Assembly: GCF_020921035.1 (NCBI RefSeq)
Contig: NC_063160.1
Coordinates: forward strand, 14,039,095 to 14,103,094
Direction of reading: 5' to 3'
DNA: 64,000 bases
DNA from: Rhodamnia argentea
Taxonomy: Eukaryota > Streptophyta > Magnoliopsida > Myrtales > Myrtaceae
In this document: positions 21,637 to 63,009 of the stretch, one piece after another
Position numbering within the stretch: position 1 is the first letter of the stretch
Layout of the letters: the number at the start of each line of letters is the position of its first letter
The notes under the pieces: model-generated
The model's database searches: none
What the model saw: only the letters and a program-made list of their open reading frames with translations
What the model was told of the DNA's origin: nothing
Position numbers and translations under genes: made by a program

Positions 21637-22630
21637 GATAAGTGCACTAGAAGTCCTAAAACTTATCACAAAAGTGTAAATGAGACCTCAAACTTTCAAA
21701 AAGTTCAATCAAGTCCTGAAAATTGTCACGAAAGTGCATTCGAGTTATAAAACTTTCAAAAAGTGTAATGAAGTCCTAAAACTAGTCGCGAAAATTTTAG
21801 GACTCGATTGCATTTTCATGACTAGTTTTGGGACTTGATTGCACTTTTTGAAAGTTTTAGGACTCGAATGCATTTTCGTGACAAGTTTTAGGACTCAATC
21901 GCACTTTTTGAAATTTTTAGGACTCAAATGCACTTTCGTGACAAGTTTTAGTACTTTTAATGCACTTTTAAAAAAAAATGCAATCGAAATATAAAACTTA
22001 TCAAATTCGTGCAATCGAATCCTTCCTTAGTTTCGTCTAACTTAGCTAACGAAAAATAATTTTTTACATTTTCTCTCCCCAACATAGCTGGAAAAAATGC
22101 TAAAACAATGCCGTTTTGGTTTAAATTTGCTTTTTTACTTTGAATTAAGTTTGTATTTATATTTTTTTTTAAATACGAGAAAGCGGACAACCATGTCTGC
22201 CTCACTGCCGTTGCTCCACCATCGCCTAGAAAGATCGGCAATGGTGGGAAATGGTTGGCAACCCTTATCAACTATAAGCAAGAGCTTGCATGCCCTTGTT
22301 CGGATCTAGCCAAGGGCCGGTGACCGTCACCAAATTTGGAGGAGGGCTATGAGGGTTGTCAACCACCGGGCGAGGGCTAGTGACCGTCACCATCACCGGC
22401 CCTTCCTCGCATCGATTTGGCCACACCATTGCTACATAGGAAAAAGAAAATATTTAAAAAAAGAGAAAATTGTGTCAACATTTTTCTCTAGATAAGGTGA
22501 GCGAAGTGAATGGAATGACTCAATTGCACCAATTTAACATGATTGAGGATTTTATTGCATTTTTTTGTAAGTTTTAAGACTCAAATTGTACTTCTGCGAT
22601 AAAATGTCGGGACTTTCAATTGGTCTTATC
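21637..22630. mobile_element. Large foldback element, same family as 16760-17130
   Basis: The left end GATAAGTGCACTAGAAGTCC and the right end GGACTTTCAATTGGTCTTATC-like are imperfect inverted copies. The left arm has alternating phrases 'CCTAAAACTTGTCACGAAAGTG' and 'AAAACTTTCAAAAAGT', which return inverted within 21780-21960. The interior (22190-22440) is GC-richer with 'GCCGGTGACCGTCACC' words. The left breakpoint of the 22304/37534 tandem duplication lies inside this element. Only its right part (37534 to about 37835) is repeated in unit B. Confidence 0.65.
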
Positions 22631-24351
22631 CCTTTCTTTAATTTATGGGTGTGAGAAATCTATGACAACACCTAAAAGACGCAACACGATGTCATAAGAA
22701 GACAGCGATGACAGTCCATATTGCTATAAATAAAGCAAACGGGGCGACCTATTTTCGAGAGGAGTTGAAATTTTTTCTTCACCAAATATTCTCGATTATT
22801 TCTTTCAACGTACTGTGTATTTTACATGCAATTTATTGCCATTTTGATAGTGCGATTTTGCTTAATTTTCAAGTGTCAATTGGGTGCAATCGAAGCATGC
22901 GTTGGGACGAAGTTGAAAACGTAAGCATCGCGTATTACCTTCAAATATCGACCGGCTAATTTTTCACAACATTTGCTTCATTATTTTTGCTTAATTCAAA
23001 TTTTGCGGCGCAAGTATTTTGAGCCTTTTTAATTTTGAAACACAAGAATTAAAAACACGGATACATAAACAAATATACAACTATAACTTAAATAATATTA
23101 TAAATACGGACAAGGAAACAAAATTAAGAATTGCTTATACTTAATACGAACGAGAGATCGATTCGCCGTCCTAAGACCGTCATAAATTTAGCGCATTTTA
23201 ACTTGCCTCATGCTCGAAATGCCGTCTCACCGCGCAAACACTTCAAAAGCTTTCGATGGACGATCAGACAAGTATTATTTCGTGGCTAAAAGAGCGCCGA
23301 TCTCGAGCACCGACTTTCGGGGAATTTGTAAGAATGCCACGTGTCAAAAGCTTACCGAATTTCGGGTTCGCTTTCCTTCATCGGCGAAATTTCGCGGCGG
23401 GCCAAGCTGGGAGTGGACCGTGTGGGGTCTGAGGAAATGTCAATGAAGCTTCCAATAAGGTCAAAAGAAGGAAATGACAAAAGCTTTTTCGTTTAGGAAG
23501 AGAGTTGGGATACACGAGGATGCTGATGGGCCCAGGGCAACGTGATTTGCATCTTGGGCCGAAAGACGACGGCCCGAAGAAGAAGGCCCAATCCCAATCC
23601 CGGGTCGTGGCCCAACAATGTAGGAAGAAGTCCTAAACATTTCACTCATTTGTCATTTAATTTCGGTTAACAAGGTCGTGAAGACGTGGCTAGTATCTTG
23701 TCCGACTTGGCTAACGGTAATGTCAACACGAGCGCGATGAGGAAGAAGGCTACCATACCATGACCGTCCCACCAATTCTGAACGGTGGGGCGGTCAATTT
23801 GTAGGCACAAATTGATTTTGGTGAAACCGGATCGTTTCACCTTTTGACTGCAATTTTTCTTTCTTTTTTTAAAATTGTTAGCTAAAATTGAAAAACAAAA
23901 TTATAAGAGGAAAATATCTAATTAATAATAGTCAAATAATAAATTTCAGATTTTAAAATTGTAGATATTATTCTCCGGCCAAATCGAAAAATTGCATGGA
24001 TATTGTTCTCAAGATACGAAGATATTCATAACTAAAAAAATCGGAATGTGATTATCTCGTATACTTTGAACTTCTGATTATCGTAGGATTTTGTAATCGA
24101 ATAAGTTATAACTCGGGAAAAAGATTCTTTAATCTTTGCTTCTTCAATCGCAAGAGAGTAAGAGGTATTCATTGCCGTTGAATTTTAGTATGTATCTATA
24201 CTATAGACATACAATGCTAATTTTTTTTCAAATGTTCAAATTTGTCTCAAACGATCAATCGCATTCTGCAAACGTGCCTCGATCGGCCAGGTTGCCAAAT
24301 ACGGATGATAAAAGTCATTGACGGTGAAGCACTTGCATCTCACATGCCCAT
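22631..24351. other. Spacer conserved in both duplication units, no gene recognised
   Basis: Matches 37836-39348 plus 51866-52081 in unit B. It contains AT-rich sequence, one GC-richer part at about 23200-23800 with the words CCACGTGTC (23338-23346) and GGCGGGCCAAG, and 'TTTCGGGTTCG'-type sequence, but no frame that I can assign. A small open frame near 22708-22959 has a counterpart in unit B, but this is explained by DNA-level duplication. Confidence 0.5.
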
Positions 24352-24356
24352 ATTTC

Positions 24357-24560
24357 TGAAGAAAAGAATTTTCTAAGGGAAGGAATACTTCTTCTCTTTC
24401 ATTGCAATTACTTAACAGCGATACATATACAAACTTAACCTAAACTTCCTCCTACAAATATGGTAACAAGATATTCACAAATAACAAAACGATTCCTTCA
24501 ATGTGGTGCTAATCTATTCCTAAAATACACCAATTAGCTAATTGACAGCTCATGCCAACA
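24357..24560 (-). repeat. 3' LTR of the copia element
   Basis: 204 bp. It differs from the 5' LTR at three sites that I can see (C-T-C-T versus C-T-C-A near the start, GTGG versus ATGG, CATGCC versus CACGCC). Confidence 0.95.
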
Positions 24561-24571
24561 CTCCCCCTCAA
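24561..24571 (-). other. Polypurine tract of the copia element
   Basis: Read on the minus strand the sequence TTGAGGGGGAG directly precedes the 3' LTR, the normal position for plus-strand priming. Confidence 0.85.
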
Positions 24572-27500
24572 GTGGGTGAAAAAATGTCTTTGATACCCAA
24601 CTTGACAAGTGAGCTTTTGAAGTCCCTCCCGGATACTGCTTTAGTTAGCATGTCCGCCAGTTGATCACTTGATCTGATGACCGGGATTTGAATGACCCCT
24701 TCTTCCAGCTTCTCTTTGATGAAATTACGATCAATCTCCACATGTTTAGTTCGGTCATGTTGCACAGGATTTTCAGAGATACTTATAGCTGCCTTATTGT
24801 CACAAAAAGTCTCATTCCCTGTTCTTGGAGGGTAACCTAGTTCGGTCATCAACCTTTTTAACCAAAGCAGTTCACATATCCCTTTTGTAACTCCTCCGAA
24901 CTCGGCCTCTGCGCTTGAAAGGGACATGACTTTTTGCTTCTTGCTTCTCCATGTAACAAGATTTCCTCCCACCAAAGTAAGATAACCGGAAGTTGACCGC
25001 CTATCAGTAACATTTCTTGCCCAATCCGCATCACTATACCCTTCTACGTCCAGGTGACCATGTTTTCCGAAAAACAAATTTTTTCCCGGGGCTGCCTTCA
25101 AATATCGCAAGATTCGAACAATCGCATCCATGTGATCCTTTTTGGGAGCGTGCATGAATTGACTTACCACACCGACAGCGTATGCAATGTCGGGCCCGGT
25201 ATGAGATAAATAGATTAGTCTTCTTACAAGACGTTGGTATCGATCTCGATCCGCATGAGTTTGATCCGGACCGCCATGAAGCTTATGATTCTGTATTATC
25301 GGAGTATCAGCTGGTTTGCACTCCAGCATTCCAACTTCGGAGAAAAGATCTAGCACGTACTTCCGTTGAGACAAGAAAATTCCTTCTTCCGATCTTGCTA
25401 CTTCAATCCCTAGGAAATATTTTAACTCTCCAAGATTCTTCATTTCAAAGTCACTATTCGGTCTAGACATGAGTCTCGTACTCTCCACATGATCATTGCC
25501 TGTAATGATGATATCGTCAACATATATAATGAGCAGAGTTACCTTCTCATTTTGCCATCTTAAAAATAAGGTATGATCGGCATTACTCTGCTCATATCCA
25601 TACTTCTTCATAGTGAAACAAAATCTTCCAAACCATGCACGGGGGGATTGTTTCAGTCCATAGAGTGACCGTTCCAATCTGCACACAACATTTGGGTTGC
25701 CATCACACCTATATCCAGGTGGGACTGTCATGTAAATTTCTTCTTCCAAATTTCCATGAAAAAATGTGTTTTTTACCTCAAGCTGATGTAAGGGCCAGTT
25801 TAAATTAGTTGCTAAAGACAACGGAACTCTCACGGTGTTTAATTTTGCTACTGGAGAGAATGTTTCTTTATAATCAACTCCATATGTCTGTGTATACCCC
25901 TTTGCCACGAGTCATGCCTTATATCTCTCAACGGACCCATCCGACTTATACTTTATCGTGAAAACCCACTTGCAACCCACCGCCTTTTTCCCTGTTGGAA
26001 GAGTTACTAGTCTCCAAGTTCCATTCTTTTCTAAAGCTTTCATCTCCTCCTTCATGGCTGCTATCTATTTAGGATCCTTCATAGCATCCTCCACTCTCTT
26101 GGGAACAGGCTCACGTGAGACATTGGCAATAAAAGCTTTGTATGTTTCTAATAATCTTCTTGTTGACACATAGTTGGCTATAGGATACTTGGATCTTCGA
26201 TTTTTGACTTCGGGAGAGTATACGTCGGGTGCCCTCCCCTTGTTGTGCCTATCGGGATGGACATATGTGTTGCAACGATTTAAATTATCACAGAGTGGAG
26301 AAGAAATGGGTACCTCGGGATCATTCGCAGGAGCTTGGTCGGATACTAAAGAGGGAGATGGATGGATAGAAGTTTGTTCAATAGCAGCATTATGGTCTTT
26401 TCCCGAATCAACTTGTTCTGAAACCTCTTGAAATTCTGCTTGAACCCCACCATTGCTTGATTTCGTCTGTTCATCAATTGCAAGGTGCGGTACTTCCACC
26501 GTTGGTCGTGCTAGTATACTGCTCTCCATTGTAGGCTGAGGTATTGATTTTGGGATGTTTATCGCAGGCAAAGGTATATTGGAAATATCCCACCAATTTT
26601 TATCCAGCTCTTCTCCCTCAGTACTAATACCCAATTGTGATGCTGGATAAAAGAGCTCGGATTCAATAAAAGTAACATCAAGTGTGACGTGGATCTTCTT
26701 AGTGCTGGGGTTGTAACATCGGTATCCTTTATGGTTTGATCCGTATCCAATAAACACGCACCTTTCTGCACATGGATCCAGTTTGGTCCGTTGATTTTTA
26801 TGCAAGTGAATAAGAGCCACACATCCAAAAACTTTCGGAGGTAGAGTCAAAACACCAGGAAGCTCTACATGGTCGGCAAGGCTTTGCAATGGAGTTCGGA
26901 AATTTAACACCCGCGAGGGCATTCGGTTCATTAGATACACGGAAGTTACTACAGCAGAATCCCAAAACCTCTTCGGAACATGACTCCCTATGAGAAGAGC
27001 TCTTGCGGTCTCAAGAATATGTCGATTCTTTCGCTCGGCTACTCCATTCTGTTGTGGTGTTTGAGCATAAGAGGTTTCATGAATGATGCCATGCCGATAA
27101 AAATACGCATCAAGCTTGTTGTTCACATATCCCCCCCCCGCCAATTATCCGTTCGAAGTACTTGAATCTTTCCATCAAACCGTGTTTTAATTATTACATG
27201 GAATTTTTCAACTATAGCAGTAACCTCATCCTTGTGTTTCATTAGACATAGCCAAGTCATCCTAGTGCAATCGTCCACAAATGTAACAAACCATCTAAAA
27301 CCAGAACCTGTAGAGATTGGAGACGGCCCCCACACATCAGAATGAATCAAATCAAATGGTTTTGTTCTTTTATTGATACTAGGAGGAAAACTAACACGGT
27401 GACTTTTTGCCTGAATACAAGTTTCACATGTGAATAATGACTCTGAAAAATGACGAAATAATTCAGGAAATAAAATCTTCAAATTCCCAAAAGAAGGATG

Positions 27501-28206
27501 CCCAAGTCGACGGTGCCATAACAAAACCAAGCGTCTTTCTCTGTCAAGATTACCCCGAGTATGTAAAACATGACCTGACTTCGACCCGAAATCATCTAAG
27601 AAATATAATCCATCCCTCTTAGTACCACGTCCAATAATCTCCTTCGTGCGAATGTCTTGGAAAAGACACAAATCAGGATACATCATAACACAACATTGTA
27701 GATCTTTGGTAAGTTGTCCTACGGACAATAACTTATTTGATAAAGAAGGCACTAGCAATGTATTTGAAAGAGACACAGATTTAGAGAGTGCAACATCTCC
27801 TGCTCCAGTTACATCGGAACCGTGACCATTTGCATTTGTAATCCAATCCCGCATTGGAGAAGTTGTTGTTGCAAGATCTTGAGAGTCAAAGGTCATGTGA
27901 TCGGTCGCCCCGGAGTCAATAATCCATCCAGCATTCTTATCCAAGTGAGAAACAGAAAGAGCACAACCTAAATTACCTTCGGCGTCTTCAATTGGTTTTT
28001 GATCCGGTACTAACGAAAAACCGGTACCTCCGGAGACTAAAGTCGCTTGAGCACTTCCTTTTCCCGCCTCTTTTCCCGCCTTCTTCTTTTTCTGTAATTC
28101 TTCCCACCACTCGGGATACCCGTGGAGTTTAAAACAAGTATCCTTCGTGTGTCGTGAATTCCCACAGTGAGAACACCCTCCAGAGATAGCAATCGATTGT
28201 TGTGCA
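24568..28206 (-). pseudogene. Copia pol: protease, integrase, RT, RNase H (broken)
   Basis: From 28206 downward: a CCHC knuckle (CSHCGNSRHTKDTC), the aspartic protease motif DSGATDHM (near 27915), the integrase H-H-C-C zinc site (LWHRRLGHPSF...CETCIQAK), the integrase core start DLIHSDVWGPSP, and then, after a frameshift at 27123-27144 beside a run of C, the rest of the core with QQNGVAERKNRH. RT and RNase H occupy 24568-25908 with YVDDIIITG and DNKAAISISENP. Damage: the frameshift just named, an in-frame stop at 26065-26067, another at about 25909-25911, and the first RT catalytic aspartate replaced (LEVKNTF where the family has LDVKNAF). The frame ends with IKDIFSPT at 24568. Confidence 0.92.
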
Positions 28207-28217
28207 CCCCCTTTTTG

Positions 28218-29124
28218 TCAAGTATCTCGATTCGGTGTTCCTCTTGTTGTCAAACGGAATCGAGAGTCTACCCCCTCACGTCGAGAGATCATAGCCCCAC
28301 CCGGGATTCCATGTTCTCCGGATGAGAGCATCACCATTTGTCGAACATCCTCCTGTCTCACTCGAGCATATGCTTGCTCTACAGTGGGGAATGGTTGCAT
28401 TTGTAGTACATCAGCTCTAACCTTGTCGAGTCGATCATCCAGTCCATCAAGGAAGAGATATACTCGATCTTCTTGAACTGTAGAGTTATATCTCGCAATA
28501 TCATTAGCACAAGTCATGGGGTTTGGTCTGCGAAAATCAATCTCTCTCCAGAGAGCCCGAAGATTGTTATAAAAGGTTTCAATTGGTCCTCCATTCTGCT
28601 TCAATCGCGACACTTGCCGCTTCAAATCATATACTTGGGACGTATCAATCCCATCAAAATAGGTTGTTGCCACCGACTCCCATACTGCTTTTGCCGTTGG
28701 GAATCTTATAAAATTTCCGATCAACGCGGGTTCCATTGAGTTTATGAGCCAACCTTTCACAATGGCATCTTGAGTTTTCCACTTCCGGGAAAGCGGGGTC
28801 AGTCTGGGCAGGTTGTGGAATGTCACCGATCAAGTATCCCAATTTGTCTTTGCCGGAGACGTACATCTCGACAACTTGGGACCACAAGCCATAATTCATG
28901 CCGTTGAACTTAATGGCGATCGTAGGGGCAGAATTTTTTGTCGATGATGGTGGACTTTGTTGTGCTGCAAGTTGCTTCATCGCAACCGTAAGACTTTCAA
29001 GGATCGTTGTGGTTGTCGATCCTTCACTGGATTGTGTTGTTGCTATTTCCTTTCCTTCCATGGCGTACAACAACGGGACGAAGTCGATCGCGTGAGACGA
29101 TGACACCGACGACACCGGGACCAC
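28218..29124 (-). pseudogene. Copia gag (broken)
   Basis: Begins near 29124 and contains the UBN2/gag-type region with KFNGMNYGLWSQVVEMYVSG and, after a frameshift near 28790, AIVKGWLINSMEPALIGNF and TFYNNLRALWREIDF. It is closed by a stop at 28218-28220 just before the zinc knuckle. The capsid-like domain is still recognisable, so the damage is limited. Confidence 0.85.
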
Positions 29125-29170
29125 CGTAGTCGATAATTGACGTACAGTACCCCAAGGATCAAACCCTAGG

Positions 29171-29182
29171 GCTCTGATACCA
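29171..29182 (-). other. Primer binding site of the copia element (tRNA-iMet)
   Basis: TGGTATCAGAGC on the minus strand directly abuts the 5' LTR, an exact 12-nt match to the usual plant initiator-tRNA-Met site. Confidence 0.95.
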
Positions 29183-29386
29183 TGAAGAAAAGAATTTTCT
29201 AAGGGAAGGAATACTTCTTCTCATTCATTGCAATTACTTAACAGCGATACATATACAAACTTAACCTAAACTTCCTCCTACAAATATGGTAACAAGATAT
29301 TCACAAATAACAAAACGATTCCTTCAATATGGTGCTAATCTATTCCTAAAATACACCAATTAGCTAATTGACAGCTCACGCCAACA
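29183..29386 (-). repeat. 5' LTR of the copia element
   Basis: 204 bp, begins TGTTGGCGTGAGCTGTC on the minus strand and ends CTTCA, with target duplication ATTTC outside. Confidence 0.95.
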
Positions 29387-29391
29387 ATTTC

Positions 29392-30028
29392 TGCCCAACC
29401 GCGGACACGATCATCCAAGGTGAAAAATTCGTACGAAAAACAAAAACGAGAGGTGACCTAGCTGAAACGCCGATCTCGAGCCGGCCAATGATGGCCGCCT
29501 GATCACTCCATCATCGCCGAGGACGGAAGCCGGCCCAAAGCCGAAGCCCCGGACTCGAGGTTAGCCGATGTGGGGCTCAGCACGGCGAGTCAGGTCGTTC
29601 GACTCAGCATCATAAAATATTATGCTCGCGAAAGAGCCACGAACACGACGGGTTCTTCGGCTCTTACGAACTTCTTGAACCTTGGAATCACATCACAAAA
29701 CAGACATCACGCCTTGTTTCTGATCACGTCCCAGCAAGCAAGAAAACAACCAAAAGATTCATCCCCTTCATGGGCCAAACCCTGCGAGACGAGACCCCGT
29801 ACTTTTCCAGAAGATGGAAATCGCCAGACAATGATTTGCGAAGTCAACAGAGAACTTCTCCTTACCAAACCTAGAACGATCATTACAAATTTTACTTCTT
29901 CTTCAACTAAACCAAACTTTGACCCCACAAACTTCAGACCCCAGACTCTTCCCAAGTTTCCAAATAAATCACGCACAAAACCCTACCACCATCAATATAC
30001 ACACTCACTGAAGCTCCTATCCTAATAT
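29392..30028. other. HIPP-A downstream region, no further gene
   Basis: Duplicated in unit B at 52087-52727. It contains the probable HIPP 3' UTR. The open frames here have no recognisable product. Confidence 0.5.
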
Positions 30029-30584
30029 CTACATGACTACGCAGTTGTCGTCGCTGAAGGCGGTGGTGTACTTGACCTCGGCGGAGCTGGCGCGGGCGAG
30101 GGTCGAGGCCTGCGGGTCCTGCAGCACGTTCCGAACGAACCCCCGCGGGGCCTTCTTGTCGTAGGCCCCCGGGGCGTAGGGGTGGTCCACCAAGTCGTAA
30201 GGCACGTAGGGCCAGAAGTCGCAGACCTTGCCGGTCCGGTGCCGGACCCGCCAGAGCACCTTCCCCAGGTCGACGTACCCGATCACCGTCAGCTTGCTGT
30301 GCTTGGGGTCGACCTCCGCCGAAGTCACCCCCTTCATGCTTTCCACCGACTTCCGCACCCTCCTCTCGCACCCCTCGCAGTCCATCTTCACCTTTATCTC
30401 CACCGTCTGGAACGAAAGAGAGAAACAAAAGAGCCCATCTCAGATTAACTAGTTGCCGAAAAGAGGGCGAGGCTGAAACAGATCGAAGCGTTAAGAGTAC
30501 CTGGAGCTGCTTGCGCTTCTTGAGCTTCCTCCTGTCGCTGCGAGGCACGTAGAAGACATCGGCGACGTAATCCAAAATCTCCAT
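30029..30584 (-). CDS. Heavy-metal-associated isoprenylated plant protein (HIPP), copy A
   Basis: Two minus-strand exons, 30501-30584 and 30029-30406, encode 153 residues. There is a short N-terminal leader (MEILDYVADVFY), then a heavy-metal-associated domain that begins VEIKVKMDCEGCERRVRKSV with the metal-binding CxxC (CEGC). Conserved WPYVPYDLVDHPYAPG and YDKKAPRGFVRNV follow, then a C-terminal CVVM CaaX box for farnesylation. Architecture and length match the HIPP20-27 group, membrane-anchored metallochaperone-like proteins that in Arabidopsis respond to metal, cold, salt and drought stress. Relative to copy B it has six substitutions, including YVDLGKVLW where B has YVDPGKVLR, and lacks three codons (PNS) before the CaaX box. 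All essential parts remain, so it may function, but it has drifted more than copy B. Confidence 0.94.
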
Positions 30585-30730
30585 CGCTCCTAAACGACCG
30601 TCGTTTCCTCTCGTAAAGCCTGTAATCAAACGGCACGCAGCTCTTCTCGATCGCTGTTTTTTATGAGAGCAGAAGAAAAAAGGTCGCCAACTTCCGAGTT
30701 CTGAGTACTGAAACGCCGAGCTTCGTCCCG

Positions 30731-30738
30731 TATAAATA
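30731..30738 (-). promoter_or_regulatory. TATA-like box of HIPP copy A
   Basis: TATTTATA on the minus strand, about 147 bp upstream of the start codon, conserved in unit B (53449-53456). Confidence 0.45.
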
Positions 30739-30766
30739 AGCCAGCTCGCCAACTGCTGCGACGAGA

Positions 30767-30811
30767 CACGTGTACCATCCACGGCCCGGACGCGTGGAGG
30801 CTCGACACGTG
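30767..30811 (-). promoter_or_regulatory. Two G-boxes (CACGTG) in the HIPP copy A promoter
   Basis: CACGTG at 30767-30772 and 30806-30811, each in an ACACGTG context that matches ABA-response elements, 30-75 bp upstream of the TATA-like box. Both are conserved in unit B. bZIP/bHLH control under ABA or stress is inferred. Confidence 0.6.
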
Positions 30812-32540
30812 GACGAGTGGTGGATGCTCATGTCATAGTAACGAGGGATGGAGGGGAGGCAGGATGTGGAGCAGCGACCATTGGTGCGTCCGAATCAAAT
30901 GGGGCCCGACCCGCGTTTCTCGTTACATCGGATGGGCCAAGTGGGGTCCGCACTGCCGGTGGAACCGACCATGGTCTCTCTTATCTCTTCGAGGCATGGG
31001 CCGTTTCACACTTCACCGTCCGACGACGGTTCCTTTCTTGTCCGAGAGCTGTGAATTGACCGGTTCAGGTTCTACGCCCCGTGACCCCCCTTACAATTGG
31101 GGTATGCGGATATTCTACGACTTGAGATCTCTGCTATTATAAAAAAAAATAAAAATTATTTCAACAATATGAAATAAATCAATATATGTTGGGAAAAAAG
31201 AAAAGAAATAAGGATATGAGTCGTGAGCTTTTTTCTAGGTTTTGATGAAAGAGAGTGATATTCCGTGTATTTTTTCTCGTCGTCAACCAATCGATAATGA
31301 CATGCAATTCCATCAAGAAAATCCGAATAATTTAGAGTGTATTCATATGAGTGGAAACACTTTTGGCGACTCACTTCTTCGAATTTTCGCGCGTTTGATT
31401 TACTGAGTGTGATCAAGTACAAATTGTTAACGTTTAGATGGGGAATGTGCCTACCTTGATCATTCGAAGGGTTGGACTTGGACACCAAGTTCGAAAGTTA
31501 ACGTTTGTTTTTAACACGGATAAAGATCACTTCCTCGTGGTGATCACAAAATAACGACAGTAAAACTACATATGCATAAGTCCAGAGATATTCAACGCGT
31601 GCGATAGTAAATAAGAAAAATATAAATAGATAGAATCGCTTTTCGGTCCTAAATCAATGGATGATCTGAAAAATCAATGACTTGATATGTACCGACACGC
31701 CGCGATCTTTGTAGTCCGTGTGTTTGATTGAAAGAAAACTGCTTCCGGCAAATTTGTATTTCAACTTTTCGGTATCTCCGCAACGGACTAATCAATTTAC
31801 GGTAGTCGTTAAATGTTTACTTAAAAAAAAAGGATCTTCACGAAAGGTATTGTTTTTTATTTATCATGAGTGAGTGAAGTTTGTTTCTGATCAAATGCTT
31901 AATGATGACTTTCGATTATCGGATTGGGCACGCAGGCGTTATTGTTAATCCTTAATTGGGTCGGGTTAATTTCAAGGTGCTCATGATGAGAAATCTTGAA
32001 ATGATGCGGGCTTGATGGTCCGGGTCGTGGGGAAAGCACGAATGATCTTCCGACAAGCGGATTGCGTGTCCCTCCGCTCCACCTCCCCGCCCGCACTAAC
32101 CCCAAGATGAGAGATTGACGTCTACTCAATTGGCCGGAGAGGATCAGATAAGCGTTGCTTGGCCCAAACGGGGATAGATTCACGTGTTCTAGAAGGGCTT
32201 AAATCCCGGAAGGATGGTAGGTCTTTAGGAGATTTGTGCTTGCGTTTCTCTGGCTTTCGCATTGGCCATGCGGGGGCGGCATTTGCTTTTACATAGGTAC
32301 AGTCACTGATGGCTAATGCAATGTGAGAATGTTACGCGAGTTTGACATGTTACATTAGATCAGGGCTGTAACGGTTGTTCTTAGAAAAACCCGCGTCTTG
32401 GTTTTTTTTTTTCCTTACCTTCCTGTTCACTTTGACAAAGGTTAGATCAGTGATTTTAACTAAAATTCATGTGGATCGTCACTGGATCTATTTATATGCA
32501 AAAGAAATGTAGTAATAACACCATCCCGGAGAAAAAAAAG

Positions 32541-37098: not shown

Positions 37099-37101
<3 letters not shown>

Positions 37102-37145: not shown

Positions 37146-37148
<3 letters not shown>

Positions 37149-46255: not shown

Positions 46256-46479
46256 AGAGGGCTAAGTCCCAATTAGGTCACTCTCCCGACTTCTCCAATC
46301 TCTCTTTTTTGTTGTCGCGCGTCTCCTCCCCAACTCCTCTCTGTCCCGTGTCTATCTCTCGCTCTGTCCCCTCCACGCCGATCTTCGCCTCGTCGCTGCC
46401 ACCCTCCCCTCAGGCCCTCATCTCGTTGCCTCCCTCACCTCGCCTCCTCTTGCCACCTCGGCTCGCCTCCTCACCTCAT

Positions 46480-48164: not shown

Positions 48165-49905
48165 ATGGTAAGCTTCATGATGTACGTCATTATGTGTCCT
48201 TAATACATGTTCTTATTTTTTTTTATGTTTGTCTAACCTTTTTAATCGCCAGTATAAGCGTGGAGGTCACATCCGTGGTACATCTTCACAAGGAAGACCG
48301 GGCGCTTCCCATTCACCTTTGCCTTCCTCTAGCTCGTCCCCGGCCTTTTCCCCTAGCTCGTCCCCGGCCCTTTCCTCTCACTCTCAACCACTACATGCTG
48401 AAGGACCCATCCGATTTGAATCTACTTCAATTCCACGTGCTTCTGTTCCACATTCTTCGATGGAACACTCACATGATGGGGGAAGCACACACGAAGAAGA
48501 TAGCCGGACCGTGATAAGGCCATTTGGAGATTCGTAAGTACTTTTTTTTACGGTCATCCATTTGTTTGGTTTTACATATGGATGTGAATTGCATTGTCCT
48601 TGTTTGCAGATTCGACGACGCTCTGCGGGTGGTGCGGGTACTTAATAAAATTGTGAATAACTATTGGAGGGGGTCGTGGATTAGTTATAGTGCCGCTCCA
48701 AGACAAGTGAAGGATTTGTGGTGGAATGAGTTCAAGGTAAGTTTTGTTCTTTTGTTTTCTCACAAACTAAGTTCGACATAAATGAAATCGGTTGTTTTCC
48801 CATTGATTACAGCGAAAGTTCGGATGGGAGGAATCGGATGAGGACGAAATTAGAAGGATTTTTAAGAAAAAAACTGGTGATCACATTCGCAATGTGATGA
48901 ATAGAGCAAAGACACAAAACGTGAAGCCAGAGTTTATCACCGGTGACGATTGGGCGGAAATGAAGACAAGTTGGGAAAGTGAAAAAAATAAGGGAAGGAG
49001 TGAACGGAACAAGAAGAATCGAGCTTCTTGTTCTTCCGAAGGGTCCGCGACGTATCTTCGGGGCTCCATCAATGTTGCGGAGCATAGAAAAAGGATGGTA
49101 AGTTCTAATAAATATGTGGTCAGTTAATTTAAGTTAATTTAATTGCTCATTTGTGTTTCAATTTTGTAGGCACATGAATTGGGGATGGAGCCGACGTATT
49201 TCGCTACATTTGAGCGAACATTTCAAAAAAAAGATAAGACATGAACTAACAACCGAGCGAAATGTATTAAGGTATGTAAGGTTATGTACTTTTGACTTTA
49301 TGGAAACACGGTTTGAAAACCATGAATGCATTCAATGTTTATGGTAGTTAGATATATGCAGTTATTTAATTTTCATATCTATTTTGTTGATGTAGGAAAA
49401 ATATGATGAGCTGTTAATGAGTACGGCTAGTGGCGGTGAAAGTGGGAGTGCGGATGAACTTTCAGCAATCGACGAACAGGCATTGTGGATGAAGGCAATG
49501 GGTGGGAAAATATATGGCCTGGGATCCATGTCAAGGGTGTGCACGGGAAAGGCGGCTGGGAGTTCGTCTTCCAGTATGGTCGCTTCAAAGAGGACACGTA
49601 TGGAGGACGAAATGACCTAACCGAGACATTTGCTTGAAGAGAAGGATGAAGAGATTAAATTGGTCAAAGACCAACTTGCACGTAAAGATGAGCAAATCAA
49701 ACAAATGGACGAGCGACATAAATCCTTCGAGTGTCAAATGTAGTCTCGGATGCAAATGGTCATGCAACACCTCCATCTAAATGACGAACGGGTTCCTCCT
49801 GTACCTCCCACTAATGAAAGAGGTGATGGGCAAAATGATGGGCGACACAATGAGGACGAGATTTCTGATGATGATGAATTAATTAGAAGTCTTATCAATG
49901 GTTAA
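48165..49905 (+). pseudogene. Transposase_24 / TNPA-like second CACTA gene (broken)
   Basis: Probable exons: one ending in the ATG at 48165-48167, then about 48253-48535, 48610-48735, 48813-49095, 49170-49270 and 49396-49905. The coding sequence starts YKRGGHIRG, has a Ser/Pro-rich segment, then the plant Ptta/En-Spm transposase-type domain (VNNYWRGSWISYSAAPRQVK, KFGWEESDEDEIRRIFKKK, and later AHELGMEPTYFATFERTFQK). A C-terminal coiled coil (KDEEIKLVKDQLARKDEQIK) and an acidic end follow. In-frame stops at 49242-49244 (TGA), 49618-49620 (TAA) and 49741-49743 (TAG) break the frame. By family role it would bind the subterminal repeats and help TNP2. Confidence 0.82.
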
Positions 49906-50939
49906 ACAAGAAGGTGGAGGAAGGAGGTAGAGATGAAGACATGGTACACGATCAATTTAAATTTCTGAAGAAGGTATTTTGTTTTTTTATAAGTTAGGAT
50001 TTTAATTTTTCTCTCCTTTAAGCCTAAATTTTACTTTGTGAAGTCGGGTAGCACTTGATCTTAAAGTTTGGTGTTTTATTTTGAATCAACGATATATGCT
50101 GGTAGTGGATATTTTATGGCCTTTAGCCAGGGAGAGGGCAATTCTCGCTAGTGATTGTGAGTTCCCAGCCATGGGTTTGGGACGTACTTGATGGGATGTA
50201 CTTGATGGAATTGTACCTAATGTTGTGGACTTTCATTTCTGCATTTCAAACTCGAGCGCGATTTAGCTTAGATTGAAAATTTTACCTTGGTTATTTGTTT
50301 GTTTGATTACTTAATTTTTTTTTTCTTGCAGATGATTACCAAATTTTTTGAAGATTACCCTGAGCATCGGCTGAAGTTTTTTTCTTTATTTTGCGCCATT
50401 ATTGCACTTTGTTTCCCTGCGTTAATTAGACTGTCAACTCGGGTACATCTATGAAACTAATCTATTTATACTTCCTTTTTCTCAAGTGTTCTGAGAATAT
50501 CATGTTTCTCATGTGCTCTATTGATGGACTTATGATTGATGTGAATGCCTTTGGTTTGCTTTAGCAACGACTTTATGTTCGGATTGATATGCATACTTGT
50601 TGAAATTTTCCGGTTCTTTGTAGGTCAAATTGACGATTATGATCGAGGATCCGAGCGATGTTGAGTGAAGGAGACTTTTTGGGGATCAAAGACCCCGATG
50701 CCCCTACATTTTGCTTTTTGCCTCGTCAAGACTCCTTTTGAGTTATCACAATGCACTTGTATGATTAGAGCACTAGGAGATCTCCTAGTTTCTTGTAATT
50801 GAAACATATCAATGTATCTTATATTATATTATTATAATATTTACATCTTATTACTTGCTTAATTAATGGTAACTATAAATTTTAGAATTAATTTTTCTTT
50901 TAATTAGATTTAAATTCGGAAATAAAAAATTAAAAAATT

Positions 50940-51849
50940 TCGTTGCTAAATTCATCGCTAAAGAATAAATAAAAAAATCGTATATCGGTCACTAATGAGC
51001 GACGGAAAGCGAAGTACGTCGAAAATTTGGAATTTTGCGACGAAAATTTCGCCACAATTGGTTGCTAATGTGTTTTGCCGGGAATTTTGCGACGATAGCA
51101 AATTTCGTCGCAAATTTGCGACAACCCATTTTCGCCTCAAAATTTGTTGCAAATTTGCGACGAATTACTATTCGTCGCAAATTTGCAACGAATAACGTCT
51201 TCGTCGCAAATTTGCGACGAATAGCGTCTTCGTCGCAAATTTGCGACAACCGATTTTCGCCTCAAAATTTGTTGCAAATTTGCGACGAAGAGGCTATTCG
51301 TCGCAAATTTGCGACAACCCATTTTCCTCTCAAAATTCGTTGCAAATTTGCGACGAAAATTGTGTTAGTCGCAAATTTGCGACCACCAATTTTTGTCCCA
51401 AAATTCGTTGCAAATTTGCAACGAATTACCCTTCGTCACAAATTTGTGACGAAAATTGCGTTCGTCGCAAATTTGCGACAACCAATTTTCGTCTCAAAAT
51501 TCGTTGCAAATTTGCGACGAATTACCCTTCGTCGCAAAGTTGCGACGAATAGGGTCGCCGTCGCAAATTTGCGACGAACACAATTTTCATCGCAAAATTC
51601 GTCACAAATTTGCGACGAATTACTCTTCGTCGCAAATTTGCGACGAACCCAACTTCTGTTGCAAATTTGTGATAACCCGAGGTTCGTCGCAAAATTCGTC
51701 GGAAATTTGCGACGAATATGCAAATTTCCGTCGCAAATTTTGCGACGCTGTATTAGCGACGAAAGTTTATGTCGTCGCAAAATTCGTTGCAACACACATT
51801 AGCGACGAATTTTGGCAAAATTTTCGTTGTAAAATTAGTCGCAAAAGGC
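50940..51849. repeat. CACTA right subterminal repeat array
   Basis: Dense 'CGTCGCAAATTTGCGACG' palindromes. The core extends to a perfect 22-bp palindrome at 51200-51221. More than 20 half-sites lie in both orientations, some in units of about 60-120 bp. Confidence 0.9.
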
Positions 51850-51865
51850 GTGTTTTTTTGTAGTG
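51850..51865 (-). repeat. CACTA right terminal inverted repeat
   Basis: Reads CACTACAAAAAAACAC on the minus strand. Confidence 0.9.
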
Positions 51866-52727
51866 TCTGGTTCTTCGATCGCAAGAGAGTAAAGGGTACT
51901 TATTGCCGTCGAATTTTAGTTTCTATCTATATTCTAGACATACAATGCTAATTATTTTTCAAATGTTCAAATTTGTCTCAAACGATCAGTTGCGTTCTGC
52001 AAACGTGCCTCGATCGGCCAGTTTGCCAAATATGGACGATAAAAGTCACGATGGTGAAGCACTTGCATCTCACATGCCCAGATTTCAGCCCAACCGCGGA
52101 CACGATCATCCAAGGTGAAAAATTCGTACGAAAAACAAAAACGAGAGGTGACCTAGCTGCAACGCCGATCTAGAGCCGGCCAATGATGGCCGGGTGATCG
52201 CTCCATCATCGCCGAGGACGGAAGCCGGCCCAAAGCCGAAGCCCCAGACTCGAGGTTAGCCGATGTGGGGCTCAGCACGGAGAGTCAGGTCGTTCGACTC
52301 AGCATCACAAAATATTATGCTCGCGAAAGAGCCACGAACACGACGGGTTCTTCGGCTCTTCCGAACTTCTTGAACCTTGGAATCACATCACAGAACAGAC
52401 ATCGCGCCTTGTTCTGATCACGTCCCAGCAAGCAAGAAGACGAAACCAAAAGGTTCATCCCCTTCATGGGCCAAACCCTGCGAGACGAGACCCGTACTTT
52501 CCAGAGGATGGAAATCGACAGACAATGATTGGCGAAGTCAACAGAAGCCAGAACTTCTCCTTACCAAACCTAGAACGATCATTACAAATTTTACTTCTTA
52601 TTCAACTAAACCAAACTTTGACCCCACAAACTTCAGACCCCAGACTCTTCCCAAGTTTCCAAATACATCACACACAAAACCCTACCACCATCAATATACA
52701 CACTCACTGAAGCTCCGATCCTAATAT

Positions 52728-53292
52728 CTACATGACTACGCAGGAGTTGGGGTTGTCGTCGCTGAAGGCGGTGGTGTACCTGACCTCGGCGGAGCTGGCG
52801 CGGGCGAGGGTCGAGGCCTGTGGGTCCTGCAGCACGTTCCGAACGAACCCCCGCGGGGCCTTCTTGTCGTAGGCCCCCGGGGCGTAGGGGTGGTCCACCA
52901 AGTCGTAAGGCACGTAGGGCCAGAAGTCACAGGCCTTCCCGGTCCGGTGCCGGACCCGCCGGAGCACCTTCCCCGGGTCGACGTACCCGATCACCGTCAG
53001 CTTGCTGTGCTTGGGGTCGACCTCCGCCGAAGACACCCCCTTCATGCTTTCCACCGACTTCCGCACCCTCCTCTCGCACCCCTCGCAGTCCATCTTCACC
53101 TTTATCTCCACCGTCTGGTACGAAAGAGAGAAACAAAAGACCCCATCTCAGATTAACTAGTTGCAGAAAAGAGGGCGAAGCTGAAACAGATCGAAGCGTT
53201 AAGAGTACCTGGAGCTGCTTGCGCTTCTTGAGCTTCCTCCTGTCGCTGCGAGGCACGTAGAAGACATCGGCGACGTAATCCAAAATCCCCAT
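52728..53292 (-). CDS. Heavy-metal-associated isoprenylated plant protein (HIPP), copy B
   Basis: Exons 53209-53292 and 52728-53114 encode 156 residues: leader MGILDYVADVFYVPRSDRRK, heavy-metal-associated domain with CEGC, the conserved GYVDPGKVLRRVRHRTGK, WPYVPYD, YDKKAPRGFVRNV, and the CaaX box CVVM after FSDDNPNS. It keeps the family's proline in YVDP and the residues before the CaaX box that copy A has lost, so it better represents the ancestral protein. The single intron position (after KKRKQLQ) is the same in both copies. Role as in the family: farnesylated, metal-binding, stress-linked, plasma-membrane or nuclear. The promoter keeps the same G-boxes as copy A. Confidence 0.95.
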
Positions 53293-53482
53293 CGCTCCTA
53301 AACGACCGTCGTTTCCTCTCGTAAAGCCTGTAAGGATCAAATCAAACGGCACGCAGCTCTTCTCGATCGCTGTTTTTTACGAGAGCAGAAGAAAAAAGGT
53401 CGCCAACTTCCGAGTTCTGAGTACTGAAACGCCGAGCTTCGTCCCGTATAAATAAGCCAGCTCGCCAACTGCTGCGACGAGA

Positions 53483-53527
53483 CACGTGTACCATCCACGG
53501 CCCGGACGCGTGGAGGCTCGACACGTG
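53483..53527 (-). promoter_or_regulatory. Two G-boxes (CACGTG) in the HIPP copy B promoter
   Basis: CACGTG at 53483-53488 and 53522-53527 with the same spacing (39 bp) and flanks as in copy A. Confidence 0.6.
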
Positions 53528-56500
53528 GACGAGTGGTGGATGCTCATGTCATAGTAACGAGGGATGGAGGGGGGGCAGGATGTGGTGCAGCGACCATTGG
53601 TGCGTCCGAATCAAATGGGGCCCGACCCGCTTTTCTCGTTACATCGGATGGGACAAGTGGGGACCGCACTGCCGATTTTCCTCTGGACGGGCCGCTAGAA
53701 TCAGGAGAGAGATCAGTAGGAGAGCAGCGGGGGTAACTGCCGAGTGCCGAGAGGCTAAAATGTCGGTTCGAACCGGTTGACCGGGTCCAGGCGAGACCGG
53801 CCGGTGGAACCGACCACGGTTTCTCTTATCTCTTCGAGGCATGGGCCGTTTCACACTTCACCGTCCGACGACGGTTCCTTTCTTGTCCGAGAGCTGTGAA
53901 TTGACCGGTTCAGGTTCTACGCCCCGTGACCCCCCTTACAATTGGGGTATGCGGATATTGTACGACTTGAGATCCCTGCTATTATATATATATATATATA
54001 TTTCGACAATATGAAATAATCGATATATGTTAAGAAAAAAAGAAAAGAAATAAGGATATGAGTCGTGAGCCTTTTTCTAGGTTTTGATGAAAGAGAGTGA
54101 TATTCAGTGTATTTTTCTCGTCATCAACCAATAGGAAATGACATGCAATTCCATCAAGAAAATCCGAATAATTTAGAGTGTATTCGTATGAGTGGAAACA
54201 CTTTTGGCGAATTAATTCTTCGAATTTTCGCGCGTTTGATTTACTGAGTGTGATTAGGTACAAATGTTAACGTTTAGCTGGGGAATGTGCCTACCTTGAT
54301 CATTTGAAGGGTTGGACACCAAGTTTGAAAGTTAACGTTTGTTTTTAACACAGATAAAGATCACTTCCTCTTGGTGATCACAAAATAACGACAGTAAAAC
54401 TACATATGCATAAGTCCGGAGCTATTCAACGCGTGCGATAGTAAATAAGAAAAATATAAATAGATAGAATCGCTTTCGGGTCCTAAATCAATGGATGATC
54501 TGAAAAACCAATGACTTGATATGTACCGACATGCCGCGACCTTTGGAGTCCGTGTGTTTGATTGAAAGAAACTTGTTTCCGACAAACTTGTATTTCGACT
54601 TTTCAGTATCCGCACCACGGACTAATCGATTTACGGTAGTCGTTAAATGTTTTCTTTAAAAAAAGGATCTTCACGAAAGATATTATTTTTTTATTGATCA
54701 TGAGTGATTGAAGTTTGTTTCTGATCAAATGCCTAATGATGACTTTCGATAATCGGATTGGGCACGCAGGCGTTATTGTTAATCCGTAATTGGGCCGGGT
54801 TAATTTCAAGGTGCTCATGATGAGAAATCTTGAAATGATGCGGGCTGGATGGTCCGGGTCGTGGCGAAAGCATGAATGATCTTCCGACAAGCGGATTGCG
54901 TGTCCCTCCGCTCCACCTCCCCGCCCGCACTAACCTCAAGACGAGAGAGATTCACGTCTGATTAATTGTCCGAAGAGGATCAGATAAGCGTTGCTTGGCC
55001 CAAACGGGGATAGATTCACGTGTTCTAGAAAGGGATTAAATCCCGGAAGAATGGTAGGTTTTTAGGAGATTTTGTGCTTGCGTTTCTCTGGCGTTCGCAT
55101 GGGCCATGCGGGGGCGGCATTTGCTTTTACATAGGTACAGTCACTGATGGCTAATGCAATGTGAGAATGTTACACGAGTTTGACATGTTACATTAGATCA
55201 GGGCTGTAACGGTTGTTCTTAGAAAAACCCGCGTCTTGGTTTTTTTTTTTTTTTTCCTTACCTTCCTGTTCACTTTGACAAAGGTTAGATTAGTGATTTT
55301 AACTAAAATTCATGTGGATTGTCACTGAATCTACTTACATGCAAAAGAAATGTAGTAATAACACCATCCCGGAGAAAAAAAGGGCTCGATACCAAAAAAA
55401 AAACTCTAACTTTAACATTTGCGACAATTCTACCTAATTTTTTTTTTGTCCCGTAAAAAAAAACTTCCAACTTTTACATTTGTTTTAATTCTATCCCAAA
55501 CTTTTGCTTTTGTCTCAATTCTACAGGCCTAGTACCAAAAAAATCCTCAACTTTAGCATATATCATAATTATATCCAAAACTCCATTTTTGTCTCATAAA
55601 AAACCTCAAACTGTTACTTTTGCCCCAATTCTAGCATAGTTAACTAATCACTATTAGTTGATCCTATGTGACATTTCCACGTTGTTAATGAATTACACTT
55701 CGGTAAAGCCGACATGAAAAAACTCATGAACCTCTCTTACGTAATTTGCTTTCTCTACATATTGCCGGGAGATATAGAGTCACTTAAGACGGCACGTTTC
55801 GTATTCTCTCCGGCACTCAGCCACTCAAAAAAGGCTAAACATGGAGATATTTGAACTAACGATCTAAAACCTCGTCGTTCCCGAAACCTATTATTTCTTA
55901 ATTTCGAAAATTTATCGATAAGTTTGGCGAGAAAAATCGAGCCACGTAGGATTAACTAACGGTGATTATGGACTGAAGACTGGCGGTGGTAGAATTGGGA
56001 TAAAAATAAAAGTCGATAATTTTTTATAAGACAAAAAAAAATAGTTTTGGTTATAATTGTGACAAATGGTAAAGTTGATGTTTTTTTTTATTAGACCGGT
56101 AGAATTGAGACAAAAGTAAAAGTTAAGGGTTTTTTACGAGACAAATTTTTTTTTTGAATATAATTAATTATCACAAAAGCTAAAGTTGGAGTTTTTTTTT
56201 GGGTGTTAGGCCAAAGAAAAATGTGATTGGTTAAGCACTTGTAAACTTCTCTGTTAGATGGGGCCTGCTGCTGGTGGGCATTCGACTATGTTCCTAACAG
56301 AAGACCCCGGTCCATTTGAGATTGATGGGCTTTTGTCGTAGGTGGTCTAATCGGACCCCGCCCGTTGAAGTTTGTGTCGATGGATTTCTCTTTTTAGACA
56401 CGTCCATCCAATTATTAATTAATCTTGTGATTAGCATTCAAAACGTACTTTAAGCCAGCAATACTAATCTTTTGATTTGGTCACTTTAACTTTGCCAATT

Positions 56501-57414
56501 TACTCACTAGCGATCCTTCGTATTAGATTTTTCCATGAACAAATTTATCGTGGATGTTGCTGTTAAAAGAAGACAAGATCGGCGACTCATGGAAAATGAG
56601 GAGATAATGTCTTTTCGTTACGTACGGGGAAGGGATCGGTCGATTGCAAAGAGTCATGGCTGGCTCTTACATCTGTGTAATCACTCCAAAAGGTGTGACT
56701 TCTTTAAGTTGTAGAACCATAGCTCTTGTGAATAGACCGGCACAACTTTTCATCCACGAAAGATAACGAGTTTTTTTCGCCAGGGGTATTAGAATTGAAC
56801 CGAAAAAACTGAACCTGGACCACTAGCTGAGTTGGACCGAACCAAAAATTTGCGCATTTTGATTCAGTTCAATTTTCGATTCGGTTAATTGAAAAAGTAA
56901 CCATTCGTTCTTTTTGGTTCAATTCAAAATCTCTTTCTCTTTTTCTTTATTTTTTTCCTTTTTTCTTTCTTTGCTTTTGCTTTTTCTTTCCTTTTTCGGT
57001 GGCTTAGGGCCTGCGACGTCGGAGAGGGCCGCGAAGCCTTGATCGGCCGCGAACGAGGAGTCTCGGCCCCCCTCGCAGACCAAGGTGAGGCCGTGAGGCC
57101 TCACCACAAAAAGAAAAAAGGAAAAAGAAAAATGTAAAACCGAATTTAATAGGTCGTAAATTGGTCATTTTGAAAAGCCACGAGACATAACCGTACATAT
57201 TGGTGTTAAGTGCATGAAAAAGAGGGCACACCCGCCCTCAACTCCCACATTTACCCAAACATCACGACCCACGGCTACTACCACCTCCGTCTTTAAATTC
57301 TCTCGTCTACTCATTCCCCCGACAACACAAAAAACATCATAAAACCTCCTCTTCTCCCTCAAGTTCAAAGTTCAGTCCCTTCCTCCTCCTCCTCCTCCTC
57401 CTCCTCCTCCTCCA
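53528..57414. other. HIPP-GDSL intergenic spacer, unit B
   Basis: Collinear with 30812-34675. It holds a 129-bp tract (53671-53799) bounded by GCCG direct repeats that is absent from A, a (TA)n run near 53985-54000, the MITE copy at 55383-56212, and a (CTC)n leader repeat at about 57381-57412 that is longer than in copy 1. No gene recognised. Confidence 0.6.
55383..56212. mobile_element. Inverted-repeat MITE (GGCCTAATACCC family), unit B copy
   Basis: Duplicate of 32541-33459 without the 110-bp insertion. The left terminus has decayed to GGCTCGATACC; the right end GGGTGTTAGGCC is intact. Confidence 0.75.
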
Positions 57415-57731
57415 ATGAGCTCGATCCCTAGCGGACTCCGTCCTCCGCGATCGCCCTTGGATCCCAAGGTCTTGATCACTGCCGTCTGGGCGGTAGCACT
57501 CGTCTCCCCGCGCCACGGGGCCGCCTCCCATATAGCGTCACCGCCTCCTCGCAGCGCGATGGTGCCGGCGTTCTATGTTTTCGGAGACTCGGTCGTGGAC
57601 CCCGGGAACAACAACGGGTTGGTGACCATGGCCAAGTCCAACTTCCCGCCCTATGGTCAGGATCTCGACCCTGGCGTACCGATGGGGCGGTTCAGCAATG
57701 GCCGAGTCCCTTCGGACATGTGGGGTACGCA

Positions 57732-57802
<71 letters not shown>

Positions 57803-58307
57803 ATTGTGGATAGTGTTGGGAATGTGGAGACTAGATAAGTCAAGACTAGCCGTTAACCGACCCCACCGCAAGAACGATTGGTTCATATGTATTTTCCAAC
57901 CCGATTCGGGTCGTGGGATCGAATCGCCTCGCTCGTTCTCAACTTTGCATAGAATTCACGAGTCAATTGTCGATTCACTTGCCCTTTTCTCTACTGAGAA
58001 AATTACCGAAAAAGTCATAAATCTATTGTAATTCAACTAGACTTTGATACACTTTAGTTCTATCTTTGTTTTTTTCGATAGTTGAGCACCTAAGCTATAG
58101 TTTCAATTACCCTTCGATGAATTTTAGTTGATAATTCAGTTTGAAGATCCCTTTTTAATTTTTTTTTATTGATAGCTGAGAAATTGGGAATTAAGAAGTT
58201 CTTGCCAGCTTATTTGGATCCAAATCTGGAGCTCCAAGACCTCCTTACCGGCGTGAGCTTTGCCTCCGGAGCCAGCGGATATGATCCTCTCTCTGCCGAA
58301 TCATTTG

Positions 58308-58351
<44 letters not shown>

Positions 58352-59547
58352 ACACGATTGAAGTAATGAATCGGATAAGACGCGATTCAAAGCCCAAATG
58401 ATTGACCAAATATCGTTATTACATACATTTGATTGTCTAGAGAATAAAATATGTGCAATGCTTTAAATCTAACGCAGGAATTCGGTCCTTAATCCCTAAA
58501 TAGTATCACAGGCTATTAAAGATCGATCTTGTCTGTGTTTAATTTGTCGACAGATGGTACTATCCTTGTCGGATCAATTGGGTTTCTACTCCAAGTGCAT
58601 GGAAACCATACGTTCGGAGGTCGGGGAGGAGAGAGCATCGGCCATCGCGTCCGAGAGCTTGTACATGGTGTGCACCGGCGCTAACGACATAACCAACACT
58701 TACTTCGGATCGCCATGGAGAAGTTCCCAGTACAACATCTCATCCTACACCGATCTCACAGTCGGCTCGGCTTCGAGTTTCCTTCGGGTAACAACACGGG
58801 CGAATGATTTTCATAGCTTTGTTAAGATTTTGGAGGAGACTGTGTCTTAAAGTTGTCAACTTTCACTTCACCATATAATTAAGGCAAATTAAGTCTATAA
58901 TTCATGACTTGGGTGGCGGGCAGGAGCTGTACGGACTAGGGGCAAGGAGAATTGTGGTGTTTAGCCTGCCGCCGGTGGGGTGCCTCCCGTCGCAGAGGAC
59001 TCTACACGGAGGCCTCGAGAGGGACTGCTTCGACCCGGCCAACGAAGCAGCCATCCTCTTCAACTCCAAGCTCAGCGCCGAGATCAACTCCCTCAATGAG
59101 GACCTCCCCGGAGCTAGGCTTGTCTACGTCGACGTTTACTACCCTATGCTCGCCCTCATCCAAGACCCTGCTCGATTCGGTAATCAACTCTCTCCCATCC
59201 TACACTTTGACTAGTCTCTCCGATCTCTTTGCCCATCTTCATCTCCGGCGAGGGAAGACCTGTTTCCCGTGTCGATGTCTGGATGTTTGGCATGGAGTTG
59301 TTCCACATATACTAATTTGGCGTGTTCTTCCCTATATATTTGCCGTGTAGGATTTCAAGTCTCTACAAAAGGGTGCTGCGGCACGGGGAACATAGAGGCG
59401 ACCTATCTCTGCAACCAACTCGGTCACCCCGAGACATGCGGCAACGACACCGAGTACGTGTTCTGGGACAGCTACCATCCTACCGAGGTGGCCTACCATA
59501 TTCTCGTCGATCAGACTTTCAGCAAGTACGTACCCAAGTTGCTCTGA
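57415..59547 (+). CDS. GDSL esterase/lipase (EXL-like), copy 2, intact
   Basis: Five exons, 57415-57724, 58176-58306, 58554-58787, 58924-59179 and 59351-59547, join in phase to 1,128 nt (375 residues), normal for plant SGNH/GDSL lipases. A hydrophobic segment at about residues 18-31 suggests a secretory signal. Block [13 protein letters not shown] holds the nucleophile Ser59. Block II surrounds FSNGRVPSD, block III GANDITN gives Asn191, and block V FWDSYHP gives Asp350 and His353. All four SGNH blocks are complete. The best family match is the extracellular EXL type (anther/cell-wall lipases) by [14 protein letters not shown] and [15 protein letters not shown]. Intron 1 is short (451 bp) because 1.58 kb present in copies 1 and 3 is deleted. 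This is the only intact copy in the window. Confidence 0.95.
57734..57800. repeat. (TC)n in intron 1 of GDSL copy 2
   Basis: 33 TC units directly after the exon-1 donor. Copy 1 has only about seven at the same place and copy 3 an impure tract, so this is strongly expanded. Confidence 0.9.

Positions 59548-62955: not shown

Positions 62956-63009
<54 letters not shown>

Follow-up and report, generated by a model that had tools for sequence, protein, structure and literature searches.

Two adjacent copies of one block of DNA, each interrupted by a transposon that the other lacks, raise the question of whether the order in which a locus grew can be read from its sequence and whether that order also comes with a clock. 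Such a locus occupies much of a 64,000-nucleotide stretch of the Rhodamnia argentea (Myrtaceae) genome (assembly GCF_020921035.1, contig NC_063160.1, positions 14,039,095 to 14,103,094 of the forward strand), called the window here, within which all positions are numbered. The two copies, units A and B, each include a HIPP gene and the 5' part of a GDSL esterase/lipase gene; unit A carries a Ty1/copia long terminal repeat (LTR) retrotransposon and unit B a CACTA transposon (Table 1). The locus is likely real and ordinary in kind, with a likely order of events and a clock that is not clean.

Reciprocal empty sites in a tandem duplication

Units A and B are adjacent, in direct orientation and collinear, and they represent the same interval. 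Self-BLAST of the window paired 22304-24135 with 37534-39349 (92.7%), 24137-24356 with 51868-52086 (90.0%), 29387-30958 with 52082-53674 (95.8%), 30955-33057 with 53800-55907 (92.4%), and 33168-34518 with 55927-57280 (92.4%); more blocks followed, the last of them ending at 37537 in A and 58740 in B, and E was 0 for most blocks. With the 5.0-kb copia and the 12.5-kb CACTA element removed before alignment, the units measured 10,199 and 8,690 bp and differed at 499 of 8,428 aligned sites (5.9%; 312 transitions and 187 transversions; Kimura two-parameter distance, 0.062), with 50 alignment gaps, seven of which were at least 15 bp long. Similarity of this extent is far beyond chance. A first reading made from the letters alone (the sequence-only reading) had proposed a collinear duplication of an ancestral unit of about 10 kb, which these comparisons confirm, and the growth from such a unit to 37 kb that it described is correct as arithmetic.

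Both elements are flanked by target site duplications (TSDs), and the sites that correspond to them in the opposite unit are single and undisturbed: an ATTTC in B for the copia element and, in A, a TTT that is one change away from the TCT of the CACTA element. Comparison of the sites bore out both pairs as first described; the element intervals given at that time (24357-29391 and 39352-51868) located the sites properly, although each wrongly counted one copy of the TSD. Because of the TSDs and the single undisturbed site in the other unit, the copies separated before either element arrived, which supports an ancestor of A and B that held neither element, followed by the entry of each element into one copy. 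LTR elements do not excise precisely, and the copia order is therefore firm in principle, whereas the CACTA order rests on the absence of any footprint in A. What reciprocal empty sites place in time is each insertion relative to the parting of the two sequences; that the insertions also postdate the tandem junction follows only when A and B derive from a single chromosome. The statement that both insertions postdate the duplication thus holds, on the TSDs and empty sites, for the separation of A from B and is not strictly shown for the junction.

The 3' part of the A/B unit is repeated a third time at 60265-63398 (copy C), beyond the interval considered in the sequence-only reading, which missed it. 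Taking this copy into account, we consider the following history probable. A tandem pair of GDSL lipase genes, the ancestors of B and C, would already have been present when a block of about 10 kb, reaching from beyond HIPP into the third exon of the GDSL gene next to it, was duplicated head to tail. The join would have been mediated by microhomology (ATCT) and would have left one truncated GDSL copy (A) and one intact copy (B). Afterwards, the copia element would have entered A and the CACTA element B, and a loss of 1.57 kb would have shortened GDSL intron 1 in B; the surroundings of HIPP would have stayed, or been made, unusually similar, by constraint or by conversion between the copies.

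Table 1. Positions of the duplicated units, their genes, and the inserted elements in the window
Feature	Position	Strand	Description
Unit A	22304..37537	+	Carries HIPP-A, GDSL-A (truncated), and the copia element; supported by self-BLAST and global alignment to unit B
Unit B	37534..58740	+	Carries HIPP-B, the 5' part of GDSL-B, and the CACTA element; supported by self-BLAST and global alignment to unit A
Junction microhomology ATCT	37534..37537	.	Same 4 bp at unit start (22304-22307) and unit end (58737-58740); site comparison
Copia element (Ty1/copia LTR retrotransposon)	24357..29386	-	5.0 kb; 204-bp LTRs, TG...CA ends, primer-binding site, polypurine tract; split frames
Copia TSD ATTTC	24352..24356 (left), 29387-29391 (right)	.	
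Empty copia site	52082..52086	.	Unit B; single undisturbed ATTTC
CACTA element	39352..51865	+	12.5 kb; ends CACTACAAAA, perfect over first 10 bp; TCT TSD; tnp2-type transposase
CACTA TSD TCT	39349-39351 and 51866-51868		Unit B
Empty CACTA site	24135..24137	.	Unit A; single TTT without footprint
HIPP-A	30029..30584	-	Two exons (30501-30584, 30029-30406, printed without ATG); HMA domain, splice sites; CVVM C terminus
HIPP-B	52728..53292	-	Two exons (53209-53292, 52728-53114, printed without ATG); HMA domain; CVVM C terminus
GDSL-A, truncated	34676..37539	+	Exons 1-3 only (34676-34985, 36966-37096, 37351-37537); TAG 37537-37539 at junction
GDSL-A intron 1 segment	35243..36816	+	Shared with copy C; absent from B, where it would fall between 58030 and 58031
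GDSL-B	57415..59547	+	Complete hand-made five-exon model, 375 aa; exons 57415-57724, 58176-58306, 58554-58787, 58924-59179, 59351-59547
Third GDSL copy (C) with promoter fragment	60265..64000	+	Cut off by window end; outside A/B unit

A junction inside GDSL exon 3

The junction of A with B falls inside GDSL exon 3, where the join reads AAC ATC TAG and so brings in an in-frame stop. A 4-bp microhomology such as the one found here would be expected in 1.6% of random joins with even base use. Past the unit end, B and copy C run on into the same GDSL sequence (58743-59342 matching 63401-64000 at 92.5%), and A goes straight to the start of B. A duplication driven by a transposon is not favored: inspection by eye of 40 bp to each side of the unit start, of the junction, and of the unit end revealed no recognizable element end, and the copia and CACTA elements both lie more than 1.8 kb inside their own units; no systematic search was made for other elements.

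By the gene models, GDSL-A is truncated and GDSL-B complete. The Lipase_GDSL profile matched GDSL-A over positions 1 to 96 of 208, which falls short of the full domain, and matched the hand-made model of GDSL-B over positions 2 to 206; the exon-2 donor of GDSL-A reads AT and not GT. The FGDSxVDPGNNN block of plant GDSL esterases/lipases is present in the GDSL genes, and the C-terminal WDSYHPTE block is found in copy B, together with a five-exon layout that we take to be that of the family. Copy A differs from the family in being without the C-terminal part.

The third GDSL copy and a probable intron 1 deletion

Over 837 noncoding sites, with the intron segment missing from B left aside, A and B diverged by 6.2%, A and C by 9.8%, and B and C by 9.7%, and the informative sites supporting AB, AC, and BC numbered 52, 22, and 23. 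These sites unite A and B to the exclusion of C (p = 5e-5), and for this reason the split between B and C is most likely older than the A/B duplication, although the exons do not show such an order. Mosaic conversion among the GDSL copies was considered and set aside, the informative sites not being clustered (68 of 179 adjacent pairs alike, p = 0.19). Exon 3 of GDSL-C is preceded at 63206-63211 by CGACGG, where A and B read CGACAG, so that the acceptor AG is missing there; GDSL-C may splice differently or may be damaged.

A stretch of 1,575 bp in GDSL intron 1, also overlooked in the sequence-only reading, is missing from unit B. A and C keep this segment and B retains about 34 bp of the left inverted-repeat arm of A, which makes a deletion in B the better reading than a site that was never filled. 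The intron region in question (35209-36445 in A and 61278-62309 in C) contains long imperfect inverted repeats (about 77%), and the segment in A also contains a 180-bp direct repeat; divergence between A and C over the segment (K, 0.20) is about twice that of other noncoding parts. In the GDSL exons (34676-37537 against 57415-58740), A and B are more different (59/624) than in the neighboring noncoding parts (52/837; p = 0.022), with a nonsynonymous divergence of 0.087 and a synonymous divergence of 0.147.

Uneven divergence and the limits of the clock

Differences between A and B are spread unevenly. The ratio of variance to mean in 400-site blocks was 5.0, compared with a permutation mean of 0.89, and none of 5,000 permutations gave a value as high. 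Penalized segmentation of the alignment yielded five blocks with divergences of 11.9, 3.8, 13.2, 2.7, and 6.7%, and the copia element sits in the 2.7% block. A 192-bp identical run upstream of HIPP exceeded the permuted maximum (p = 0.003). The two copia LTRs are 98.5% identical (3 differences in 204 sites; 95% interval, 0.3 to 4.2%) and thus differ less than the noncoding parts of A and B (431/7341, 5.9%; p = 0.0035), a value that agrees with a copia element younger than the average separation of A from B.

Several observations weigh against the proposed history or against reading dates from it. The LTR divergence is not below that of the least-diverged block (47/1740; p = 0.48), so that the comparison of LTR and unit divergence that went with the sequence-only reading succeeds against the mean and fails against this block, and 5.0% of all 204-site stretches of the A-B alignment contain three or fewer differences. 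Silent divergence within one unit is five-fold apart between HIPP (0.029; 3/104.7 sites) and GDSL (0.147; 20/149.8 sites; Fisher p = 0.0036). In the GDSL exons (624 sites), the informative sites for AB, AC, and BC number 27, 31, and 25, leaving the three copies equidistant. The truncated GDSL-A shows no extra amino acid change compared with the intact GDSL-B (14 nonsynonymous to 11 synonymous changes on its own branch, against 23 to 8; Fisher p = 0.17), which is opposite to the simple expectation for a pseudogene; one possible meaning is that the junction formed later than the duplication. The same counts gave no support to relaxed selection on GDSL-A, which had been considered as a means of telling a real duplication from a haplotype artifact. 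The internal dating had been called unusually clean; with blocks ranging from 2.7 to 13.2%, silent sites as far apart as in HIPP and GDSL, and LTRs no less diverged than the closest block, that description is not supported. Reciprocal empty sites yield an order of events but, by themselves, no clock.

The uneven divergence could have arisen through conversion of one copy by the other, through regional constraint, or through the two together. That selection or variation in mutation rate accounts for it in place of conversion, with an active HIPP region changing slowly and methylated CpG sites and DNA near the elements changing fast, has slightly less than an even chance. At CpG sites, differences were 2.3 to 6.6 times as frequent as at non-CpG sites in all nine stretches compared, and to the right of the copia element (29387-29900) transitions ran 8 to 1 towards T/A in A, the carrying unit, relative to B, a bias based on small numbers in one of several stretches and one to be expected if methylation spread from the element, as it may have done there. 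The low rate, however, extends beyond CpG: at non-CpG sites, the HIPP intron and upstream DNA differed at 8 of 505 positions, compared with 151 of 2,900 in 31103-34443. Transitions showed no direction around the CACTA element (15 to 14) or to the left of the copia element (6 to 8), and methylation spreading from the elements was rejected on these grounds as the cause of the fast blocks; the 192-bp identical run likewise speaks against rate variation. A more specific proposal, that after the duplication conversion went on homogenizing the surroundings of HIPP (roughly 24325-31102 in A) and came to a halt there when the copia element inserted some 640 bp beyond the stop codon of HIPP-A, with transposons acting as barriers that freeze the copies as separate loci, seems to us a long shot.

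Alternative origins of the tandem pair

The same geometry would be produced if the original tandem duplication had been larger and had afterwards lost, by a deletion at the 4-bp microhomology, everything between GDSL-A exon 3 and what is now the start of B. On this view the junction would be a product of the deletion, whose ends would be seen as unit ends, and the lack of relaxed constraint in GDSL-A relative to B would fit. We regard this course of events as unlikely: it needs one more event and has left no trace of a longer unit, the left flank (1-22303) matching the rest of the window, on both strands and at the thresholds used, only in a TC microsatellite.

Formation of the pair between homologous chromosomes, with A and B drawn from different haplotypes, is quite unlikely. 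One or both transposons could in that case predate the junction, given that an empty site shows an insertion to be younger only than the ancestor shared by both sequences, and the patchy divergence, with its five blocks, would be old haplotype structure. Against this origin, a mean divergence of 5.9% and a silent divergence of 0.147 in GDSL would be high for alleles of one species. Still less credible is an assembly artifact in which two haplotypes of one heterozygous locus were joined end to end. Its A-B geometry would be identical to that of a real duplication, but the window contains no Ns, the overlap at the join is only 4 bp, GDSL-A has lost a splice donor, and the GDSL exons of A stand no nearer to those of B than to those of paralogue C.

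The weakest alternative, that the CACTA element was present before the duplication and was then precisely excised from A, is extremely improbable: DNA transposons can excise and the site in A is one base off (TTT for TCT), but A shows no footprint, filler, or loss of flanking sequence. According to a rice study, removal of an element with one target copy is indistinguishable from a never-filled site, yet only 8 of 94 recognized excisions of DNA transposons were perfect, with two TSD copies left, the others having deletions and/or filler (PMC4423477), and for this reason a clean excision from A is unlikely.

The inserted elements, the HIPP genes, and related arrays

The element in unit B has the CACTA terminal inverted repeats, the 3-bp TSD, and the tnp2-type transposase of the CACTA (En/Spm) group. 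Transposase_21 (PF02992, E = 2.1e-73) and Transpos_assoc matched, as did DUF4216 above the cut-off and Transposase_24 under it. As in other members of the group, a motif is repeated in direct and inverted orientation near the ends: TTTGCGACGAA/TTCGTCGCAAA occurs in 46 exact copies in two forms (27 and 19), and all copies in the window lie within the element, most of them near its ends and some internal. The soybean Tgmt* CACTA element is alike in its ends, its 3-bp duplication, and the kind of motif repeated near its termini (PMC2613891). The element in unit B differs from the group in its own repeat motif and in transposase frames that are broken into several open stretches, which may represent either introns or damage.

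The element in unit A has paired LTRs with TG...CA ends, a 5-bp TSD, a G-rich polypurine tract, and a primer-binding site that is presumably of the initiator-Met type, and it has the gag, integrase part, and reverse transcriptase domain order of Ty1/copia elements, its integrase-linked domains preceding a reverse transcriptase of copia type. The curated cut-off was exceeded on the minus strand by RVT_2, gag_pre-integrs, Pol_BBD, and SH3_retrovirus, with rve (29.7 against 32.6 bits) and Retrotran_gag_2 slightly under it. Its short LTRs and split frames set it apart from the type.

Both predicted HIPP translations contain an HMA domain with a CxxC motif (CEGC) and a C-terminal CaaX box (CVVM). 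We take HIPP, for heavy-metal-associated isoprenylated plant protein, to be the family name that applies to such genes.

The locus shares with tandem (local) duplications in plant gene arrays its direct adjacent copies, a breakpoint inside a gene, one truncated copy, and a further copy in the array. There is no essential difference from such arrays, and the unusual point is the one distinguishing insertion in each copy. With a GDSL pair, then a truncating block duplication with a microhomology join, and then one insertion per copy, the locus would be a readable example of how a plant gene array grows. A literature search combining GDSL, HIPP, tandem duplication, and transposable element returned nothing, and none of the related papers listed named the A/B locus in its title or the start of its abstract; neither result is evidence of absence in print.

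Among the gaps in the A-B alignment, one of 129 bp near 53671 (53671-53800) corresponds to sequence present only in B, in otherwise very similar surroundings and with a 4-bp GCCG repeat on both sides of it in B; the repeat would suit a small insertion in B as well as a microhomology deletion in A. Near 33067 of A, an 88-bp gap showed no simple repeat by eye. The window gave no Rfam matches and no tRNAs by ARAGORN. To the left of the duplication, related tandem repeats of about 29 to 31 bp and of 60 bp lie in both orientations at 16771-16903 and 21640-21969, close to the left end of unit A, and fragments of a Vps35 gene lie on the minus strand at 5818-10659, of which the fragment at 5818-6138 scored under the curated cut-off.

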